A stretch of 38,742 nt of DNA, from positions 1 through 38,742 of the forward strand of contig JAKONH010000442.1 of the NCBI GenBank assembly GCA_022702045.1, given 5' to 3'. This DNA is from Spirosomataceae bacterium. Its GTDB lineage: Bacteria > Bacteroidota > Bacteroidia > Cytophagales > Spirosomataceae. A model generated the notes under the pieces. The model did not search any database. It saw only the letters and a list, made by a program, of their open reading frames with translations, and had not been told where the DNA came from. Both the position numbers and the translations under genes were made by a program. The first letter of the stretch is position 1. Every line of letters begins with the position of its first letter. Shown one piece after another: positions 13,420 to 22,083 of the stretch.

Positions 13420-13436
13420 GCGGCTATTTTGATACC

Positions 13437-13469
13437 AAACGCCCTGCCGGCATTGCTGGCAGGGCGTTT
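13437..13469 (+). terminator. intrinsic terminator closing the three-paralog operon
   Basis: AAACGCCCTGCC (13437-13448) pairs with GGCAGGGCGTTT (13458-13469), a 12-bp GC-rich stem with a nine-base loop. The downstream T run is short and interrupted by C (TTTCTGTTT). Confidence 0.85.
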
Positions 13470-13819
13470 CTGTTTACAGGTAGCAGTAACACACAGATTA
13501 GGAGCGAGGGGCACCTGGAAACCAGTAGGACAAGCTGACGAATGAATTAGTCCACGGGTTCTCAGCCTGATGACAATCGCCAGTTAAAAATGGCATTCAC
13601 AAGCATGCAACACCACTTTTGACTGAGAATTAGTGCGACATATAGCACATGAATAAAGCTGTATATATAGTGTAAATCGTTACAACTGTTCAGGCTTTCT
13701 GGCGGGCTGAGTTTGTCTGTCTACGGTTGTCATAACAAACCTATTCGGATGGTAGAATTAACATATATAGCCCCGTATTTGTTACATTGCGCTACGTTGC
13801 CCACACCGATTTATAGTAT
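13470..13819 (+). other. upstream region of the retron-associated operon (350 bp)
   Basis: No gene is seen here. The second half is AT-rich and contains several TATATAG/TATAG-like words (near 13637, 13668, 13762 and 13812). A TTTG occurs at 13778-13781, but no TAnnTTTG box follows at the expected spacing. The operon promoter should lie here, yet I cannot point to it with confidence. Confidence 0.5.
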
Positions 13820-16800
13820 ATGAAATTGATCAAGCAGATTAAACTTTACTTTAAGGAAGGTAATTCCGATAAGGTTTATGAGGTCGATCTATGTGACGTT
13901 GGCGCTGACCAATATGTCGTTAATTTCCGCTTTGGCCGACGCGGGGCTACGCTGAAAGAAGGAACCAAAACACCCGCGCCCGTATCGCTGGTGACCGCTG
14001 AGAACTTCGTTAGCAGCCTGGAAGTCGAAAAGCGAAAAAAAGGGTATCAGTCTGAAGATGAGATGTTTCAGCCTATGCCTACAGTGGTAGTTGATGACTC
14101 GAAACCGCAGACCCGTGAAGCGGCTATTCTGAAACGACTGAGTGCACTAGCCAGTGGACAAACGGCGTTCCGAACGGCCTGGAAACCGTCGCGGGTAATT
14201 TGGCGGGCGGGACAGCTTCGGCTCACCGAATCCATTCCCTTCCTGATTCGGCTGGTCGACCGGGGCGACGAAATGCAGCGTTATGCCACACTCTGGGCGT
14301 TAGGACGTTGCGCCGATCCACAAGCTGCCCGAACGCTTCAGGTCTACTTCTCAAACCAGAAGTATTCTGATAAAATCCGGCGCGTGGCGGCCGAAGCCTT
14401 GCTGCATGTACTGAAAGACGATGAATTGCGGGCGCACAATCAACACATTGAAAGTCGGTTACCACCGTCTGTTCGGCAGGCCATTACCGAGCCCGATGCT
14501 GCGACGCTGACAGCGTTACTGGCGGGTAGCGTGCAGAACCAAAGCCTGCCGGACTATTTCTTGCTGGAAGACTTGTACACGCTGACATTGAGTAACCCGA
14601 TTATTCGGACGCCGTTGCTAAATGTACTGCGCACTATCATGTTGAAGCCAGGCTGGTTCCGGCATGTTCGGCACATACTGAAAATGGCGGAGTTGCGTGA
14701 TGACTTTGAGGTTCAGGGTTTACTAGCCTATCGTTTTGAACGAACGATGTCTTTCTTCCACAAGCCAGCCTATTATTACTACGATGAGGACAGTAACGAT
14801 CCATCGATCTACATTGCGGCTTTGGGCCAGCGCGTTCGAATAAAGGCGGAACTTCGTAAGCCGGAGAGTCGGCTGGCGTATTCTAACCGAACCCGCAATT
14901 ATTTGCGGAAACGGCTGTTGCGGACGTTAAATCAGTTTGGCAAACAGAAAAACGTCGACTACGTACGGCTGGCAACGGCTATACTGCTGTCGTACGATAA
15001 AGCTACCGACTACCGGCCACCACACGACGAGATTACGTATAGGTGGGATCAGACGCAGCAGCGAAGCGTATTGTATACCCGTCAATACCCAGCCTACGAC
15101 AACGCTTATCTGTTGAACTGGATTCTGTACGGTGGAAGTGATAAGCTGGAAATCAACTACCTGGGGTTGTGGCACTATCGTGACTTGGTGCCGTACGACA
15201 CTCAGGTCCAGGCAGATGCGCAACCGGCTGCCAAACCGACAGAAGCGGGCTTATTCACCAATCTGCTTAGCCGTTTTTCCCAGTTACTGAGCAAGGAGAC
15301 GACCGGTACGGCCCCAGAACACGTAGACACGCCCGCGCCCTGGGTTCGTGACGAGTATTTCCCGGAACTCTGGGATCAGATGCCTCAGGCGTATGTCCAA
15401 CTGCTGCTACGGGCACGGGTCGACGAGGTTCATGCGTTTGCCTATCAGAACCTGCGTCAGCATGCGGCTTACCTCGCGCTTGAGGAGAAAATAGACGATC
15501 AGCTGTTGCAGCAACTGCTAACTTCGGCGTTCGAAATTCCGGCCCGGTGGGGTGTCGAGATACTGCGTAACCGACTGCCACACGGAGCCGATCGTTCGCT
15601 GGTACTGCTTCTGTTGAACAGTCCCTTTGCCGACGTACGTAAACTGGGGCAAGAATGGATCCAGCAAAACAGCCAACCCTTCGTCGATGACTCTGGCTTT
15701 GTTATAGCGATGCTTTTCTCACCCCATGACGAATTGAGAAGCTGGATGAATCGCCTGCTCGCCAACGTAACGTTAACGGCTACGCAGCAACAAGTGCTGA
15801 TTGGACGAGCAGTTGCCAGGCTGCTCACCCTGACCAACGATACGCCCGAAACCAATGCGCTCATCAGCGATGCGACGCAAAGCTTACTTCGGTACACCGC
15901 CGATGCGCTTCCGTTGCTTAGCCAGCAGGTCGTGGCTGAACTGCTTCAACGGCCCGTAGCGTCCATTCAGGCGTTTGCGGTCAGGCTGCTGATTCTGAAA
16001 AACAGTCGACCTTCAGCATCTGTCCTGGGGGCACTGCTTGTGAGTGCCTACGTCGACGTGCGCCAGGCCGGACAACAATTGTATGCGGGCATGCTGCCAG
16101 GCCTGACAACCGACACGACGTATGCCGATGAGTTGACCGAGCTGTTGCTGCATGCGCTGATTCGAAAAGAAGTGGCTGAGGGCATACACGATGAACTGGT
16201 AACGTTACTGCGTGGTCCGTTGTTGACGTCGGTAGCTAAACTTGATCGGGCGACAACGCTGCGGCTGGTATATGCTCATTTTCGACCAGCGCAGGAACTG
16301 GGCCTGTTTATCCTGGACCGCTACCAGAATCCGCACGACCTCACCATTCGGCAAATCATCGCCCTGGGCAACCACGAGTTGCTGGCCGTCAGGCAGTGGT
16401 GCTGGGACTACTTCCGGCAAAACGTGGCGCGTATCCGCTACGAGCGTGATGAAGCAATCCGACTACTGGATGCTACCTGGGAAGATACCCGACAGGCCGC
16501 TATGAACTTTTTCTGCGATGCGTTTACCGAAACTGACTGGACACCGGAAACGCTGATCGGCATTGCAGATTCGGTACGACCCGATGTTCAGGCGTTTGGG
16601 CGCGAACTAATCACCCGTTTCTTCACGGATGACGACGGACCGGAATTCCTGCTCAAATTAAGTCAGCATCCAACGGCGGCCGTTCAGGTATTCACGACCA
16701 ACTACCTGGAGCGGTACGCAACTGATCAGCCCGACCGCCTTAAAGCGCTTACTTTCTACTTTCGGTCGGTGTTGCTACGCGTCCACCAAAGCCGAACGGC

Positions 16801-17005
16801 CAAAACCCGCGTCTTTGCCTTTCTCCGGCAGGAGGGGCTCAAATCGGAAGACAATGCCCGCTTCGTTGCCCGGATACTGACCGATGTGTCGGCGACAACT
16901 GCCATTGGCGACAAGGCCAGTTGTATTCAGATTATGCGGGACCTACAGCAACAATTCAACGAGTTACCCTTGCCAATTCGACGGCATCAACCGGACATTC
17001 GGTAA
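13820..17005 (+). CDS. WGR-domain protein with long HEAT/ARM-repeat body (retron-associated)
   Basis: This is a 1061-residue protein. Residues 1-80 form a WGR domain (LYFKEGNSDKVYEVDL, VNFRFGRRG, ENFVSSLEVEKRKKGY), a fold found in PARPs and MolR-like proteins that often contacts nucleic acid. From about residue 100 to the end the protein consists of alpha-helical repeats of HEAT/ARM type, for example IPFLIRLVDRGDEMQRYATLWALGRC, DKIRRVAAEALLHVL, FADVRKLGQEWI and ELLAVRQWCWDYFRQN. There is no enzymatic motif that I can see and no signal or membrane segment. It is the first gene of a tight plus-strand run with two further accessory genes, a structured RNA and a reverse transcriptase. A scaffold or sensor in a retron-type system is inferred. 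As I recall, HEAT/ARM proteins accompany retrons of type XIII. Confidence 0.85.
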   Translation: MKLIKQIKLYFKEGNSDKVYEVDLCDVGADQYVVNFRFGRRGATLKEGTKTPAPVSLVTAENFVSSLEVEKRKKGYQSEDEMFQPMPTVVVDDSKPQTREAAILKRLSALASGQTAFRTAWKPSRVIWRAGQLRLTESIPFLIRLVDRGDEMQRYATLWALGRCADPQAARTLQVYFSNQKYSDKIRRVAAEALLHVLKDDELRAHNQHIESRLPPSVRQAITEPDAATLTALLAGSVQNQSLPDYFLLEDLYTLTLSNPIIRTPLLNVLRTIMLKPGWFRHVRHILKMAELRDDFEVQGLLAYRFERTMSFFHKPAYYYYDEDSNDPSIYIAALGQRVRIKAELRKPESRLAYSNRTRNYLRKRLLRTLNQFGKQKNVDYVRLATAILLSYDKATDYRPPHDEITYRWDQTQQRSVLYTRQYPAYDNAYLLNWILYGGSDKLEINYLGLWHYRDLVPYDTQVQADAQPAAKPTEAGLFTNLLSRFSQLLSKETTGTAPEHVDTPAPWVRDEYFPELWDQMPQAYVQLLLRARVDEVHAFAYQNLRQHAAYLALEEKIDDQLLQQLLTSAFEIPARWGVEILRNRLPHGADRSLVLLLLNSPFADVRKLGQEWIQQNSQPFVDDSGFVIAMLFSPHDELRSWMNRLLANVTLTATQQQVLIGRAVARLLTLTNDTPETNALISDATQSLLRYTADALPLLSQQVVAELLQRPVASIQAFAVRLLILKNSRPSASVLGALLVSAYVDVRQAGQQLYAGMLPGLTTDTTYADELTELLLHALIRKEVAEGIHDELVTLLRGPLLTSVAKLDRATTLRLVYAHFRPAQELGLFILDRYQNPHDLTIRQIIALGNHELLAVRQWCWDYFRQNVARIRYERDEAIRLLDATWEDTRQAAMNFFCDAFTETDWTPETLIGIADSVRPDVQAFGRELITRFFTDDDGPEFLLKLSQHPTAAVQVFTTNYLERYATDQPDRLKALTFYFRSVLLRVHQSRTAKTRVFAFLRQEGLKSEDNARFVARILTDVSATTAIGDKASCIQIMRDLQQQFNELPLPIRRHQPDIR

Positions 17006-17034
17006 GCCTTTTTTAACCTATCTCACCTTTTATC

Positions 17035-18474
17035 ATGTTGACGAATTATTTGGAACTCTCGGAAGATCAGGGAGCTGCCCATAAATTTTATGAAGTTACG
17101 GTCGACCAAACGGCTGTGACCATTCGCTTCGGGCGGATTGGCGATCATGGACAAAGCCAAACAATCTCATTCGGTGATACCGCCGAAGCGACAAAATTTG
17201 CCGAAAAGAAAATTAAGGAAAAACAAAAGAAAGGCTACGCACTGGCTGTTCAGGGACAGCGTCAAAAACGGGGTGTCACAAGGCGTGCCGTAGCGAGTAA
17301 GCCTGCTGCCGTAAAGCAAAGTCTGCCTATCATCTGGCGGTTCAATACGGGTTCTGCTGCTTTTGGCATTTATGTAAACGAGCACACCTGCTGGGCTGGC
17401 AATGAACGGGGCGACGTATTTCGACTGAACCACGATGGTGAAGTTGGCTTACACTATCGGCTGCCCGACGGTGTTAAGTGTATCGTCGCCGATAATGAGT
17501 GGATCTACGTAGGCTGCGATGATGGGAACGTCTATGATTTAACCGGTAAACGCCCGCGTCTGTCCTACGAAATCAATGACAAAATTGAAATTTACTGGCT
17601 CGACATTAACGATGGTTTATTAGGTGTATCGGATGCAACAGGTAAAGCAACGATCATCAACTACGAGGATGAAGAACAGTGGAATAAACAGCAGGATGGT
17701 AAATCCGCCTGGATGATTCGTTGTGACGAACGAGGCAAAGTCTTTTGTGGCGATTCGGCTGGAATCGTTTGTTATAATGGCCCTGATGGGCAATTTGATT
17801 GGAAAGTAACTACGGAAGGATCTGTTCTCTTCGGCTGGGCTGAAAGCGATAAAATTTATGCGGCCACAGCCAGAAATCTAGTGCAGGCGTTCACGAAGAC
17901 AGGTGAGCACGTACGAAATTACCGTACCGACGCCGTCGTGTATTCGTGTGCTACATCGCCTAATGGTGATTTTGTGTTTGCCGGCGATAACTATTCCGCC
18001 ATTTACTGTTTCGATGCGGCCGGAAACCGACTCTGGAAGCTAGCTACGGGCTGTGGGTCGGCCCTGTCGATGCAGTATGTTGATGAACGGCTCTACGTCG
18101 TAACCACAGATGGCTCACTAGCTTGTATCGATGCCCGGCAGGAAGCGATTACTGACGCCCAAAACGGAATTACCCCGGCGGTGACGGACGTTAAAATAGC
18201 CGCTGTAGAACTGTCGGCGGCTATCACGTCGACCGATACCGCTGTTCTGGAAACAACCTCCGCTATGAGCGGTATACGGGTACATTGTGTGAAGGAAGGC
18301 GGAAAGCTACGGGTAAGGCCAGTGTCGGAAGGCTTTCATACTGACTGGCATGTTCAGTTTCCCAAGAACCTTCGCCAGGAAAATACCACCTATGTTGTTG
18401 ATGAATTGAAGGAAGCCGCGCAGGGTGGTTTCTACCGCGTATTTGGCAACATTCTGAAGTATACGTCTAACTGA
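17035..18474 (+). CDS. WGR-domain beta-propeller protein (retron-associated)
   Basis: This 479-residue protein starts 29 bp after the WGR-HEAT gene. The WGR domain spans residues 1-80 (EDQGAAHKFYEVTV, IRFGRIGDHG, EKKIKEKQKKGY). Residues about 95-375 are beta-propeller repeats of the WD40/PQQ kind, with repeated short motifs such as WAGNERGDVFRLN, YVGCDDGNVYDL, VFCGDSAGIVCYN, VFAGDNYSAIYCFDAAG and YVVTTDGSLACID. A separate C-terminal module follows (about 408-479, including VHCVKEGGKLRVRPVSEG and GGFYRVFGNI) that I do not recognise. No enzymatic residues are apparent. Two successive genes that each begin with a WGR domain suggest both proteins bind the same kind of ligand, perhaps the RNA-DNA made by the linked reverse transcriptase. 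That is inference. Confidence 0.85.
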   Translation: MLTNYLELSEDQGAAHKFYEVTVDQTAVTIRFGRIGDHGQSQTISFGDTAEATKFAEKKIKEKQKKGYALAVQGQRQKRGVTRRAVASKPAAVKQSLPIIWRFNTGSAAFGIYVNEHTCWAGNERGDVFRLNHDGEVGLHYRLPDGVKCIVADNEWIYVGCDDGNVYDLTGKRPRLSYEINDKIEIYWLDINDGLLGVSDATGKATIINYEDEEQWNKQQDGKSAWMIRCDERGKVFCGDSAGIVCYNGPDGQFDWKVTTEGSVLFGWAESDKIYAATARNLVQAFTKTGEHVRNYRTDAVVYSCATSPNGDFVFAGDNYSAIYCFDAAGNRLWKLATGCGSALSMQYVDERLYVVTTDGSLACIDARQEAITDAQNGITPAVTDVKIAAVELSAAITSTDTAVLETTSAMSGIRVHCVKEGGKLRVRPVSEGFHTDWHVQFPKNLRQENTTYVVDELKEAAQGGFYRVFGNILKYTSN

Positions 18475-18487
18475 TTTTAGACAAACC

Positions 18488-20131
18488 ATGCGCTTCAACT
18501 ATAAATTCGGTGGCAGCACATCCATAGTCAGTAACGCCAATTCGGTGGGTATGTCGTTTGCCCCCAATGTCAATCGGAGCCCCACGTTTTTTGTCGGGAA
18601 ACTGCATCGGAAACTGGCTTTTCGTGAAGCTATTTCGGCCTTACACGATGTCGTGGTATCAGATATGCGCTTCGTTCCGCGCGACAAAACAGTCTACAAG
18701 GAATGGGCCGCGCAGCAGGAAGTGATCTGGCTATCAAAATTTATGGCCGATCAGCAGATCGATGACGGGAAAGAACGGATCGCTGAGGTTAGAGCGGAAC
18801 TGACGTCATTGTACCGCGATCAGGATCGGGTTATGAAACCGTTTTACGAAGCACGGCAACGGTACTATAACTACCTCTACGAACGCGATCGGGATGCCTG
18901 GTTTGTACTGGACCCCGTTATCACGGTACACCCCGATGAAGTATTTTTCGAATGTTTCTCGCAGGATGAATCGTCGTATGGAAAACTGTCGGCCAACTAC
19001 AACGTGTTCAAGCACATCAGCGAATTCGCCTGCGGCACCACCAATATTGATTACTCGTCAGCGCTCTACAACGAGTTTCAAAAAATTCGCGACTATAAAG
19101 AAACCGATTTTAAGATCGATCCCAGTGGCTTCGACGTACAAACGACTGACGAAGACGCGTATAAAGAAGTAAAAATCGATCTGCCTGATAGCTGGGTGCG
19201 CGGTTTTCTGCAGGTGAGTTCGGCTATGACGCTGCCGGCGACGACGCTCGAATTGCATCCGATGGACGTGTACGGTATTTGCTCGCTGCTGCGTCGGTTC
19301 AAGGAAAAAACAGGACCAAGGTCCATCCGATTTCAGCTGACACCCGGAAAACCGATCAAACTGGTGTTTGACCCCTGGGGCAAAGAACTGGTCTGTAGCC
19401 GGTCCGTTTACGAGGGTACAGCGGCCAAGGAAATTCGGATTTGGGGTCGTCGCCGATTGCTTATTCTGGAGCGATTGATTCCGGTTAGTCGCCGGTTCAC
19501 GGTTCACCTGTTGGGGTCGGGTTTACCTTCATTTTACATAGCCGATCTGGGTGATATGAGCTTTACGCTCGGTCTTTCAGGCTGGTCGGCCAATGACTGG
19601 TCGCGGCTGGGAAATTTTGACCTGATGGCCCCGCGTGCCGACGTGTCGCCGGCTACGGCCCAACTGATATTTGAGACGCTCAAACAAAACTGGTACGAAA
19701 AGCCCGAAGTGCTGGCTAAACGAATGGGACTGGATACGAAAACCGTGCTGGGCGCACTCGGGACTTATACACAGGCGGGGCGGGCCATTTTCGATGTACA
19801 GCAGGGTGTTTACCGGGTTCGGGAACTAACGCAGGAGCCATTACCGATGGCACAGCTACGGTTTGACAACCCGCGTGAAGCTACTGCGCACCAGTTGTTC
19901 GACGACAAGACTGTTCAGGTTATAGCAACCACTGAATCGGAAGGAACACGACTAACAGGTACTGTCAGAACCGAAAGTCGAACATACAACCCCAGCCTGG
20001 TAATTGATGCTGACGAACGACTGGCAAAAGGAAGCTGTGATTGTGATTTTTATGGTCAGAACAAGCTTCACAAAGGTCCTTGTGAGCATATGCTGGCGCT
20101 ACGGATTGCCTGTCGAAGTCAACTGACATAA
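18488..20131 (+). CDS. winged-helix/SWIM zinc-finger protein (retron-associated)
   Basis: This 547-residue protein starts 13 bp after the previous stop. At the C-terminus a SWIM-type zinc-binding motif is clear: Cys517-x-Cys519, twelve residues, Cys532-x-His534. Just before it (about 400-460) lies a winged-helix-like segment (YEKPEVLAKRMGLDTKTVLGALGTYTQAGRAIFD). The N-terminal 380 residues are mixed alpha/beta with no motif that I recognise. SWIM domains bind nucleic acid or protein partners. As I recall, a protein called WHSWIM is a marker of type XIII retrons, which matches the adjacent RNA and reverse transcriptase. No terminator separates it from the RNA, although the RNA has its own promoter 60 bp downstream. 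It could be the effector or a regulator; the sequence does not decide this. Confidence 0.85.
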   Translation: MRFNYKFGGSTSIVSNANSVGMSFAPNVNRSPTFFVGKLHRKLAFREAISALHDVVVSDMRFVPRDKTVYKEWAAQQEVIWLSKFMADQQIDDGKERIAEVRAELTSLYRDQDRVMKPFYEARQRYYNYLYERDRDAWFVLDPVITVHPDEVFFECFSQDESSYGKLSANYNVFKHISEFACGTTNIDYSSALYNEFQKIRDYKETDFKIDPSGFDVQTTDEDAYKEVKIDLPDSWVRGFLQVSSAMTLPATTLELHPMDVYGICSLLRRFKEKTGPRSIRFQLTPGKPIKLVFDPWGKELVCSRSVYEGTAAKEIRIWGRRRLLILERLIPVSRRFTVHLLGSGLPSFYIADLGDMSFTLGLSGWSANDWSRLGNFDLMAPRADVSPATAQLIFETLKQNWYEKPEVLAKRMGLDTKTVLGALGTYTQAGRAIFDVQQGVYRVRELTQEPLPMAQLRFDNPREATAHQLFDDKTVQVIATTESEGTRLTGTVRTESRTYNPSLVIDADERLAKGSCDCDFYGQNKLHKGPCEHMLALRIACRSQLT

Positions 20132-20190
20132 GCGGTTTGGGTAACGATGAAATGCGTTTAAGTAAATCAAAACAAATAGTGTGTTGACTC

Positions 20191-20221
20191 TTTGCAGGGT
20201 AACCAGTTCGGTATAAATTTG
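20191..20221 (+). promoter_or_regulatory. promoter of the retron RNA
   Basis: TTTG (20191-20194), nineteen bases, then TAAATTTG (20214-20221) is a textbook Bacteroidota promoter (TTTG-N17-23-TAnnTTTG). Transcription should begin a few bases before the a1 arm at 20237. Confidence 0.8.
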
Positions 20222-20236
20222 CGGAATCAAGTGTCC

Positions 20237-20471
20237 AAACGGTCAGGCACGCACAAGACCTTGCGTTTCCTTCGGGAAAAGAACGATGCTTCGTCGTTCA
20301 TGCCAACTGACTTCACACGCATCATTACGTGCAATCGTTACTGTGGGGGGCTTCGTACTAGTAGCACCTTTTCGGTACGACTCCTGCGGACTAAAAGGTG
20401 CTACTAGTACGGCCCCCCGGGAGTTGATTGACGTAATCCTGAGATTGTTCGAAGGCCGTGTCTGACCGTTT
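20237..20471 (+). ncRNA. retron msr-msd non-coding RNA
   Basis: This is the proposed template/primer RNA of the reverse transcriptase encoded 62 bp downstream. Its ends pair as the a1/a2 stem: AAACGGTCAGGCACG (20237-20251) with CGTGTCTGACCGTTT (20457-20471), 15 bp with one G-U. Next come two msr hairpins: TTTCC-TTCG-GGAAA (20266-20279) and GAACGA/TCGTTC (20281-20299). The msd is a long rod. An outer 12-bp stem with one bulged G pairs 20324-20336 with 20426-20437. After an internal loop, six G pair with six C (20345-20350 with 20413-20418). The top is a perfect 18-bp stem (20355-20372 with 20393-20410) closed by a 20-base loop. The branching G is not certain (candidates 20251 and 20257). A T-rich tract follows a2. 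Confidence 0.88.
20324..20437 (+). other. msd hairpin of the retron RNA
   Basis: This 114-nt inverted repeat is the predicted reverse-transcribed part. Counting outer, middle and inner stems, about 38 base pairs form, interrupted by one bulged G, an 8x7 internal loop and a two-base bulge (20352-20353). The inner arm reads GTACTAGTAGCACCTTTT. In DNA form it would fold into the same rod. Confidence 0.85.
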
Positions 20472-20533
20472 TTGTTTTCCCCGCCTGTATCGCTGTCTGT
20501 CTGCACCGGTCAACTCAGGAACACCCCTGTAAC

Positions 20534-22021
20534 ATGACTCGTCAGGAAATTTATGACCGAATCCGTGGGCTGGGTTCAAAAGATTCGTTTGTGTTGGCCG
20601 AAATGAAACGGCTTGGCTTCTGGGAGCCGACTACCGATATACCCAGTCTGCCGGAGCAACTCATCGAACGGCAGGGCCAGCTTCAACGAGAGCTAAACGA
20701 ATTACTGGAGAAGCAGCGCCGGTACGAAAATCGGAAAGCCATGCTGGCCGAGATGCGGAAAGCCCGCATGGCCGAATCCAAACGGAAGCAGCAGGAAACG
20801 AAGCAACGCAACGAGCAGAAACGTCAGGAACGGACCGCGCAATGGAAACGTCAGCAGGAGCAGACGGTTGTTTACCTGGGCAAGAACGTCTCCGGCAGTT
20901 TACAGCCAGGAACGGCCAACAACGATCAGTTGCGCCGGTTTGGCCTTCCGGATTTCGACAGCCCACTGGCGCTGGCTCAGGTAATTGGTGTAACGCTCAG
21001 TCGGTTGCGCTTTCTGGCGTACGATCGTTCGGTGTCTACGGTGTCGCATTACAAGCGATTTTACCTGCTCAAAAAATCGGGTGGAAAACGCTTGATTTCG
21101 GCACCGATGCCGTATCTGAAAACGGCTCAATACTGGATTCTGAACCATATTCTTCGGAAAATTCAACCTACGGAACAGGCGCACGGCTTTACAAGCGACC
21201 GATCCATCGTGACCAACGCGCAGCCACATACAGGCAAGGATGTGGTAGTAAACCTGGACTTGAAAGACTTCTTTCCCAGTATCAGCTATCGGCGGGTCAA
21301 AGGGTTATTTGTGATGGTTGGATATGCCGAAAACATAGCGACCATCCTGGCGCTGCTTTGCACGGAGCCTGACAGCGACATGATCGAGTTAGATGGAAAA
21401 ACGTACTACGTTGCCAAAGGTAGTCGCGTACTACCCCAGGGTGCCCCGACCAGCCCAGCGCTGACCAATCTGATCGCCTACCGCCTTGACCATCGGCTAC
21501 GGGGCATTGCGGATAAATTCGGCTATACATACACGCGCTACGCTGATGACTTAACCTTTTCTGCATCTGGCGAAGCGGCCGGGCGCGTGGGGCAGTTGCT
21601 CTGGTCGGTCAGGCAAGTGATCGACGGGGAGGGATTTGTGCTGCACCCGGACAAATTACAAGTGATGCGCAAGGGAAGCCAGCAGCGTGTGACGGGCCTG
21701 GTTGTGAATGACCAGCTAGGTATCGACCGGACCATGCTGCGGAAGTTTCGGGCCTTACTGCACCAGATTGACCAGTCGGGATGGCAAGGTAAAACGTGGG
21801 GTAAAGGCCAGATTCAGAATACCGTACTGGGTTACGCGAATTTCGTCGCTATGGTAAAGCCGGAACAGGGAAAGCGGCTGGTAGAGACGGTCAAAAGGCT
21901 GATGCTGCCCGCTCTCGATTCGGCAAGTGAACTACCTAGGCAGAAACCGTCGACTAGTGATCAAATCAATCAACTGCCCAAGGATACGAATTTATCTACG
22001 GACTGGTGGGATGTGCTATAA
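20534..22021 (+). CDS. retron-type reverse transcriptase with N-terminal coiled-coil extension
   Basis: This 495-residue RNA-directed DNA polymerase is predicted to copy the msd part of the RNA encoded just upstream into msDNA. Catalytic blocks in order: motif A LDLKDFFPSI (catalytic Asp242), QGAPTSP (302-308), and YADD (336-339) with Asp338 and Asp339. Two retron-specific signatures are present: NAQPH (228-232, the NAxxH motif) and VTG (386-388). Retron enzymes are usually about 300-400 residues. Here residues 1-150 form an extension in which about 45-110 is a highly charged coiled-coil (many Lys, Arg, Glu and Gln). The C-terminal 40 residues (to DWWDVL) are also extra. There are no group II intron maturase or endonuclease domains. 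The gene ends in a terminator and follows the WGR/WGR/SWIM genes, indicating one functional unit. Confidence 0.95.
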   Translation: MTRQEIYDRIRGLGSKDSFVLAEMKRLGFWEPTTDIPSLPEQLIERQGQLQRELNELLEKQRRYENRKAMLAEMRKARMAESKRKQQETKQRNEQKRQERTAQWKRQQEQTVVYLGKNVSGSLQPGTANNDQLRRFGLPDFDSPLALAQVIGVTLSRLRFLAYDRSVSTVSHYKRFYLLKKSGGKRLISAPMPYLKTAQYWILNHILRKIQPTEQAHGFTSDRSIVTNAQPHTGKDVVVNLDLKDFFPSISYRRVKGLFVMVGYAENIATILALLCTEPDSDMIELDGKTYYVAKGSRVLPQGAPTSPALTNLIAYRLDHRLRGIADKFGYTYTRYADDLTFSASGEAAGRVGQLLWSVRQVIDGEGFVLHPDKLQVMRKGSQQRVTGLVVNDQLGIDRTMLRKFRALLHQIDQSGWQGKTWGKGQIQNTVLGYANFVAMVKPEQGKRLVETVKRLMLPALDSASELPRQKPSTSDQINQLPKDTNLSTDWWDVL

Positions 22022-22024
22022 CAG

Positions 22025-22064
22025 CGAACGCCCTGGCCGTGAGTGAGACAGGGCGTTCGTTTGC
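22025..22064 (+). terminator. intrinsic terminator of the retron operon
   Basis: CGAACGCCCTG (22025-22035) pairs with CAGGGCGTTCG (22049-22059), an 11-bp stem with a 13-base loop, followed by TTTGCTT directly after the reverse transcriptase stop. Confidence 0.88.
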
Positions 22065-22083
22065 TTCATTATCTGGGTAGTGA

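Follow-up and report, generated by a model that had tools for sequence, protein, structure and literature searches.

A conserved RNA beside a reverse transcriptase in a Spirosomataceae genome, best read as the msr-msd of a type XIII retron, with rod-diversified tandem relatives

What is the structured RNA that precedes a reverse transcriptase (RT) gene on a contig of a Spirosomataceae bacterium, and does it form part of a retron? In the window (the whole stretch of DNA analysed here, 38,742 nucleotides), the original prediction had placed a complete msr-msd RNA within a 402-bp gap between a SWIM gene and the RT gene. The gap exists as described, extending over positions 20132-20533, between the SWIM stop at 20131 and the RT start at 20534. 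The RNA, at 20237-20471, is very probably the msr-msd of a type XIII retron, contained within a block with the order WGR1 - WGR/propeller - SWIM - ncRNA - RT (13820-22021). The features of the block are as follows.

13820-17005, plus strand: WGR_XIII protein (WGR1), 1061 aa, a WGR domain followed by a HEAT/ARM solenoid (PADLOC WGR_XIII, E 0)
17035-18474, plus strand: accessory WGR and beta-propeller protein, 479 aa (WGR, E 2.8e-18; propeller families)
18488-20131, plus strand: SWIM_XIII protein, 547 aa (PADLOC SWIM_XIII, E 7.5e-239)
20191-20221, plus strand: candidate Bacteroidota-type promoter, TTTG (20191-20194), N19, TAAATTTG (20214-20221) (pattern match)
20237-20251, plus strand: a1 arm of the closing stem (both folds; own-partner pairing in 42 copies)
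20259-20264, plus strand: CCTTGC, of which CCTT pairs with AAGG at 20452-20455 and G20263 is the proposed priming guanosine (conservation; by analogy with retrons in PMC6868368)
20266-20279, plus strand: msr hairpin 1, 5 bp with a UUCG loop (minimum-energy fold only; variable in relatives)
20281-20299, plus strand: msr hairpin 2, GAACGATG-CTT-CGTCGTTC (folds, covariation)
20325-20336, plus strand: 5' arm of the msd base helix, partner 20426-20436 (second fold, covariation)
20344-20372, plus strand: 5' arm of the variable msd rod (both folds; own-partner pairing)
20373-20392, plus strand: apical bulge and small hairpin of the rod (C117 and G119 of the alignment, at 20373 and 20375, invariant in 28 rows)
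20393-20419, plus strand: 3' arm of the msd rod (both folds; own-partner pairing)
20420-20456, plus strand: conserved 3' part of the msd, GGAGTTGATTG...TCCTGAG...CGAAGGC, including the 3' arm of the base helix at 20426-20436 (alignment, covariation)
20457-20471, plus strand: a2 arm of the closing stem (both folds; own-partner pairing)
20534-22021, plus strand: retron reverse transcriptase, 495 aa (RT_XIII, RVT_1; NAQPH, YADD and VTG motifs)

The PADLOC models for a class XIII RT and for its WGR/HEAT and SWIM partners all match in the window (RT_XIII, 610 bits; WGR_XIII, 1127 bits; SWIM_XIII, 792 bits), and the block is therefore assigned to the type XIII retrons, reportedly a class in the Mestre et al. 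2020 classification. The RT_XIII match (E 7e-184) is followed by a runner-up family at 324 bits, and the best 25 of the 46 RT families matched all carry retron-type or RT_other/outgroup names. The RT contains NAxxH in region X, YxDD, and VTG in region Y, in the forms NAQPH, YADD and VTG, and residues N228, H232, Y336, D338, D339, V386, T387 and G388 are invariant across 38 aligned RTs; NAxxH, VTG and YADD are given as motifs of retron RTs in PMC6868368. The window shares RT_XIII, WGR_XIII, SWIM_XIII and an ncRNA beside the RT with the type XIII retron but differs from it by the additional WGR-beta-propeller gene, which sits between WGR1 and SWIM. A type XIII retron detected by PADLOC is listed for Variovorax (PMC11953036), and the PADLOC server searches with msr-msd covariance models (PMC9252829). 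Among the matches listed in the open-licence literature, we found no paper on the function or mechanism of type XIII.

The layered pairing that the original prediction had drawn by hand, with a 15-bp closing stem enclosing two small msr hairpins and one long msd rod, was recovered by computation. Folding of 20225-20480 yielded -112.5 kcal/mol compared to -73.1 +/- 4.5 for dinucleotide shuffles (z -8.8), none of 200 being as good. The a1/a2 stem (20237-20251 with 20457-20471; 15 bp, with one G-U at 20247/20461) is present in the centroid and in the second fold, 14 of its 15 pairs occur in the minimum-energy fold of the same segment, and in the second fold it resumes inward past an interruption (20259-20262 with 20452-20455). 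The rod, with its asymmetric apex, spans 20344-20419 in both folds. Hairpin 2 of the msr likewise stands in both folds, whereas hairpin 1 forms in the minimum-energy fold and is the least certain part of the structure because it is missing from the second. Beneath the rod, the msd is closed by a helix of its own (20325-20336 with 20426-20436); this helix, the inner continuation of a1/a2 and the promoter pattern upstream are features additional to those originally predicted. No gathering-level match to Rfam 15 was obtained in the window.

The ncRNA beside the RT accordingly combines complementary a1 and a2 ends, which are weak in several AT-rich relatives, with msr hairpins and an msd hairpin between them, as a retron does. 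With the experimentally studied retrons covered by PMC6868368, the window shares the a1/a2 stem, the msr hairpin, the msd hairpin and the NAxxH, VTG and YADD motifs, whereas its family differs in the TTGC priming context, the separate conserved msd base helix, the variable rod with a conserved apex and the tandem copies present in some relatives. The priming contexts listed in that text are TAGC, CAGA, CAGC, GAGC and ACGC, TAGC being the usual one; in our 28-copy alignment, TTGC is invariant at the expected priming position, with CTTGC present in 28 of 28 rows and the CUU/AAG pairs kept in all 28.

The non-canonical TTGC context and the long, basic and unusual N-terminus of the window RT would also suit a non-retron RT defence system (a DRT/UG-type RT with its own ncRNA), in which the structured RNA would act as template or cofactor and no branched msDNA would be made; branched msDNA is, so far, only predicted here. 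We consider this reading very unlikely in view of the RT_XIII score and the names of the best-matching families, the presence of both NAxxH and VTG, and the canonical order of a1/a2 stem, msr hairpin and msd rod. The RNA family, its helices, the RT class and the partner genes are, at the level of sequence comparison, established.

For the putative msr-msd RNA, transcription would start at about 20226-20229 from a promoter of its own. The pattern TTTG-N17-22-TAN1-2TTTG, which we take to be the Bacteroidota promoter form and in which the N1-2 spacing was relaxed after inspection of the relatives, occurs upstream of 17 of the 42 ncRNA copies, window included; 200 shuffles gave 0.35 on average and never more than 3. 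Neither sigma-70-type promoters nor intrinsic terminators were called at 20100-20700.

We compared 41 loci, window included. WGR1 and/or SWIM are encoded upstream of the RT in 25 of these (SWIM in 25, WGR1 in 23), and any ncRNA detected in these loci lies between SWIM and RT; 12 loci have the order ncRNA-RT-WGR1, with SWIM following WGR1 in nine and the stretch ending first in three. A WGR1 or SWIM relative is thereby found beside the RT in 37 of the 41 loci, and neither is present in the fetched stretches of L053, L071, L072 and L081. Anchor patterns, searched only within 1.6 kb before the RT, identified 42 ncRNA copies in 35 of the 41 loci, which is not a blind count because the patterns were loosened twice. 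No complete ncRNA was identified by anchors in L053, L062, L071, L072, L076 and L081 (6 of 41 loci); L076 carries the 5' part of the RNA near a contig end. A covariance model of the 5' part built from 20 copies (R1) was searched against the 41 sources (681 kb) and produced 39 hits at E<=1 in 31 sources, 20 of the 39 being the training copies. All 39 lie upstream of the RT by coordinates, and the single hit in the window's own genome is the window RNA. Only the anchors detected the ncRNAs of L054, L055, L073, L074 and L080, and in L053, L062, L071, L072 and L081 no hit of the unfiltered model fell below E 1.9.

Several of these loci depart from the common arrangement. L053 and L072 encode the RT and the WGR-propeller protein, with neither WGR1 nor SWIM in the fetched stretch and no recognisable ncRNA, and are possibly a reduced or divergent variant. 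In L071, the RT stands alone in the fetched stretch. The RTs of L062 and L081 are distant, with identities of about 39-40%, and R1 has no match at either locus; in L062, a different palindrome lies upstream.

Covariation was assessed on an alignment of 28 of the 42 copies (the two L061 copies, which are close to L059, as well as L074, L080 and ten copies of a GC-rich subgroup were omitted) for three helices defined by the fold of the window RNA itself. Among 641 cells, 94.9% are paired, and 40 are two-sided compared to 12.6 +/- 2.4 in shuffles that ignore relatedness, none of 500 reaching this number; slid controls gave 0-3 two-sided cells. There is no excess of further pair types (11 vs 11.0 in shuffles). 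Hairpin 2 has 8 pairs, with 98.2% of the cells paired and two-sided changes at three pairs, and the msd base helix has 11 pairs, with 93.4% of the cells paired and two-sided changes at five, one of its pairs being unpaired in 18 of 26 copies.

For the a1/a2 stem, in which the original prediction had proposed to look for compensatory changes, own and permuted partners were compared across the 42 copies: a1 pairs with its own a2 at -20.1 kcal/mol compared to -9.4 for permuted partners (z -15.8), the own a2 being best or tied in only 20 of the 42. Given these own-versus-permuted results, the stem is on the whole strong, with weak pairing in several AT-rich copies, down to -3.2 kcal/mol in L069 copy 1. 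The rod arms give -34.6 with their own partners vs -12.6 when permuted (z -25), own partners being best or tied in 38 of 42. In homologous loci that keep the RT, the pairing is mostly kept as well, with compensatory changes and own-partner pairing, contrary to the refuting outcome that the original prediction had named. Conservation indicates that the RNA is real, and it is best read as a putative type XIII retron msr-msd.

The rod by itself, a long near-perfect palindrome, could be a palindromic repeat or a terminator that landed beside the RT, with the nested pairing around it a chance addition; a T-rich stretch 3' of a2 fits a terminator, and the palindrome draws hits to microRNA models, all below gathering (best mir-277, 32.1 bits, E 4.7e-5). 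We regard such an origin as extremely improbable, considering that 42 copies display the same architecture, that covariation is found in helices outside the rod, that a promoter pattern is present upstream and that no intrinsic terminator pattern was called; moreover, the RNA is single-copy in its own genome, where the rod arm occurs nowhere else at <2 mismatches. The below-gathering hits were taken as generic long-hairpin matches, and a microRNA identity of the palindrome was rejected.

If the RNA is the msr-msd of a retron, is that retron intact? The fragmented assembly (646 contigs, 82.85% complete), in which one such RT and one such RNA were found, and the stops inside the RT match in the relatives L014 and L041 are compatible with a decayed, inactive block. 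Decay is nevertheless highly improbable for the window, where all four genes of the block are open, the catalytic residues of the RT are kept, and the two changes that separate the rod from that of Spirosoma oryzae (L002; RT 93% identical to the window RT) are both compensated on the opposite arm.

The partner proteins were analysed through predicted structures. An AlphaFold2 model of the SWIM protein, built from 24 sequences, has a moderate mean pLDDT of 64.7, with mostly good confidence at about 251-360 and low confidence for much of the first domain. Foldseek matched this model to PCNA/9-1-1 clamps (best E 2e-8), and VIA-align superimposed residues 33-366 of the model on two-domain clamps with Z 20.2 and an rmsd of 2.6 over 241 residues, that is, the model has the two-domain fold of a clamp. 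At sequence level, no clamp homology was found for this protein in PDB sequences or Pfam up to E 10, the sole PDB sequence hits being to FANCL (E 0.066 and 0.97), and we therefore term the protein clamp-like, not a clamp. According to the model, it is predicted to contain a clamp-like fold at about 33-366; compared to PCNA/9-1-1 clamps, with which it shares the two-domain fold, it adds a SWIM finger and a winged-helix-like part. The SWIM zinc finger is C-terminal and was detected by Pfam in 23 of the 24 members, the window copy falling under the Pfam cutoff, and weak winged-helix Pfam hits point to a possible winged helix.

The WGR1 model (pLDDT 85) consists of a WGR domain and a HEAT/ARM solenoid. 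A toxin domain in WGR1 was considered and rejected, the 50 Foldseek matches listed all being HEAT/ARM proteins, other solenoid proteins or complexes. Pfam and Foldseek revealed no catalytic toxin domain in any of the partner proteins. The WGR-propeller protein, encoded in 11 of the 41 retron loci at differing positions, also occurs away from retrons: among 390 genomes of the order, 15 have it, only 8 of the 15 beside the RT, and we do not treat it as a strict retron partner.

In the mechanism that we propose, the RT would hold the conserved msr, namely hairpin 2 and the CCUUGC/CGAAGG junction, and would use as primer the 2'-OH of G20263, which faces the inner end of a2. The msd would be copied leftwards to near 20325-20340, yielding an msDNA from about 20325-20456 in the form of one long, nearly perfect hairpin. 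By extension from other retron types, the RT-msDNA would form an inactive complex with the SWIM and WGR/HEAT proteins, and binding, cleavage or modification of the rod by a phage product would lift the inhibition, whereupon the partner proteins would halt growth. The msDNA-linked trigger is a phage methyltransferase for the Asa1/Squ1 retrons (PMC12548924) and the phage protein D5 for the Kva2 retron (PMC13405049); these are examples of msDNA as a phage-protein sensor from other retron types with other effectors, and they serve here as analogies only. The locus offers a testable ncRNA model of a type XIII retron, with promoter, helices and a likely priming site, and comparison across the family singles out the msd rod as what varies in an otherwise conserved machine, with a clamp-like protein as partner.

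The surprise in this family is the presence of tandem ncRNAs. By anchors, two or three complete copies were identified in six loci, L051, L059, L060, L061, L069 (three copies) and L077, and the covariance model added a second copy with the full fold in L070, for a total of seven tandem loci. Every one of them has the ncRNA-RT-WGR1 order seen in 12 loci; the 25 loci with the partners upstream include no tandem case. L059, L060, L061 and L077 belong to one genus, and the seven are therefore not independent events. In the arrays of these four loci, the promoter pattern was matched before the first copy only, and in the L051 and L069 arrays no match to TTTG-N17-22-TAN1-2TTTG was found.

Copies in one array share a similar or even identical scaffold and diverge more in the rod. 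The copies of L060 have 0/90 and 0/34 differences in the scaffold (one gap) and 20/76 in the rod; the corresponding values are 1/90 and 2/34 (one gap) and 28/76 for L077, 2/85 and 0/34 and 13/76 for L051, 5/91 and 0/34 and 19/76 for L059, and 8/91 and 0/34 and 18/76 for L061. Copies 1 and 2 of L069 differ at 0/86 and 1/34 positions of the scaffold and at 28/76 of the rod, and the difference between the rods of copies 2 and 3 is smaller (6/76). The rod is not consistently the faster-changing part when single-copy relatives are compared: L050/L068 have 11/73 differences in the 5' part and 7/76 in the rod, and L059.1/L061.1 have 5/91 and 1/76.

The rods share recurrent words. TACTA/TAGTA occurs in 19 of 38 distinct rod arms (2.2 expected) and CTACTA/TAGTAG in 12 of 38 (0.4 expected), whereas ATC, CAA and GGA are rare; the 38 distinct arms, out of 42, were cut by automatic folding, some with loop letters, and the expectations come from single-base shuffles that ignore relatedness. 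From this k-mer bias, the rod appears to be a stem that varies in sequence yet draws on a common set of words, possibly a degenerate site for a protein. An origin of the rod as a copy of phage or host DNA was also considered and rejected: a 14-mer scan of viral contigs matched at least 120 stretches, too short to be meaningful, with no rod 19-mer found in the viral contigs, and in the own genome the 15-mers at <2 mismatches matched only the two rod arms, the remainder being no commoner than a reversed control.

Because the rod diversifies most in the tandem arrays and the scaffold hardly changes, the msd rod is likely the sensor part. A speculative and somewhat doubtful extension is that type XIII retrons diversify their sensor, combining a near-fixed scaffold with an interchangeable rod. 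Tandem ncRNAs, with a first-copy promoter only in four arrays, might let one RT make a repertoire of msDNAs, each directed against a different phage protein, and the guard might be the PCNA-like, SWIM-finger clamp riding on or held by the rod duplex; the window would then be the single-copy form with the same scaffold. If the tandem ncRNAs yield several msDNAs per RT, the retron would have a repertoire-type sensor, and the arrays would also provide a ready-made multiplex scaffold for producing DNA in cells. Among the matches listed in the open-licence literature, we found no paper on tandem retron ncRNAs; the arrays with diversified rods, together with the clamp-like SWIM protein, merit follow-up.

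The occurrence of the retron is patchy, which, like the gene found at the same site in one relative, is an indirect hint at a possible anti-phage function. RT matches, own genome included, were found in 12 of the family's 222 genomes at E<=1e-60 and, in overlapping sets at E<=1e-90, in 31 of 390 genomes from the order and 5 of 395 from the phylum. In the congeneric genome G200, no RT match was obtained at E<=1e-60. This genome retains the same two neighbours (91% and 79% identical) about 730 bp apart; at the site between them (L099 482-1086, against window 13420-22083), the retron is replaced by a PIN-domain gene with a small ORF ahead of it, for which no Pfam match was found, in an arrangement that resembles a toxin-antitoxin pair. 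Judging from this one example, modules of this kind seem to be exchanged at the site; no tRNA that could mark an insertion site was found in the window. Among 72,556 plasmid records, a single one, from the alphaproteobacterium Methylobacterium bullatum, has an RT match (E<=1e-50; RT 53% identical). Just upstream of its RT (L098 8742-8940) lies a similar RNA with a long palindrome (model E 0.044), which suggests transfer between phyla.
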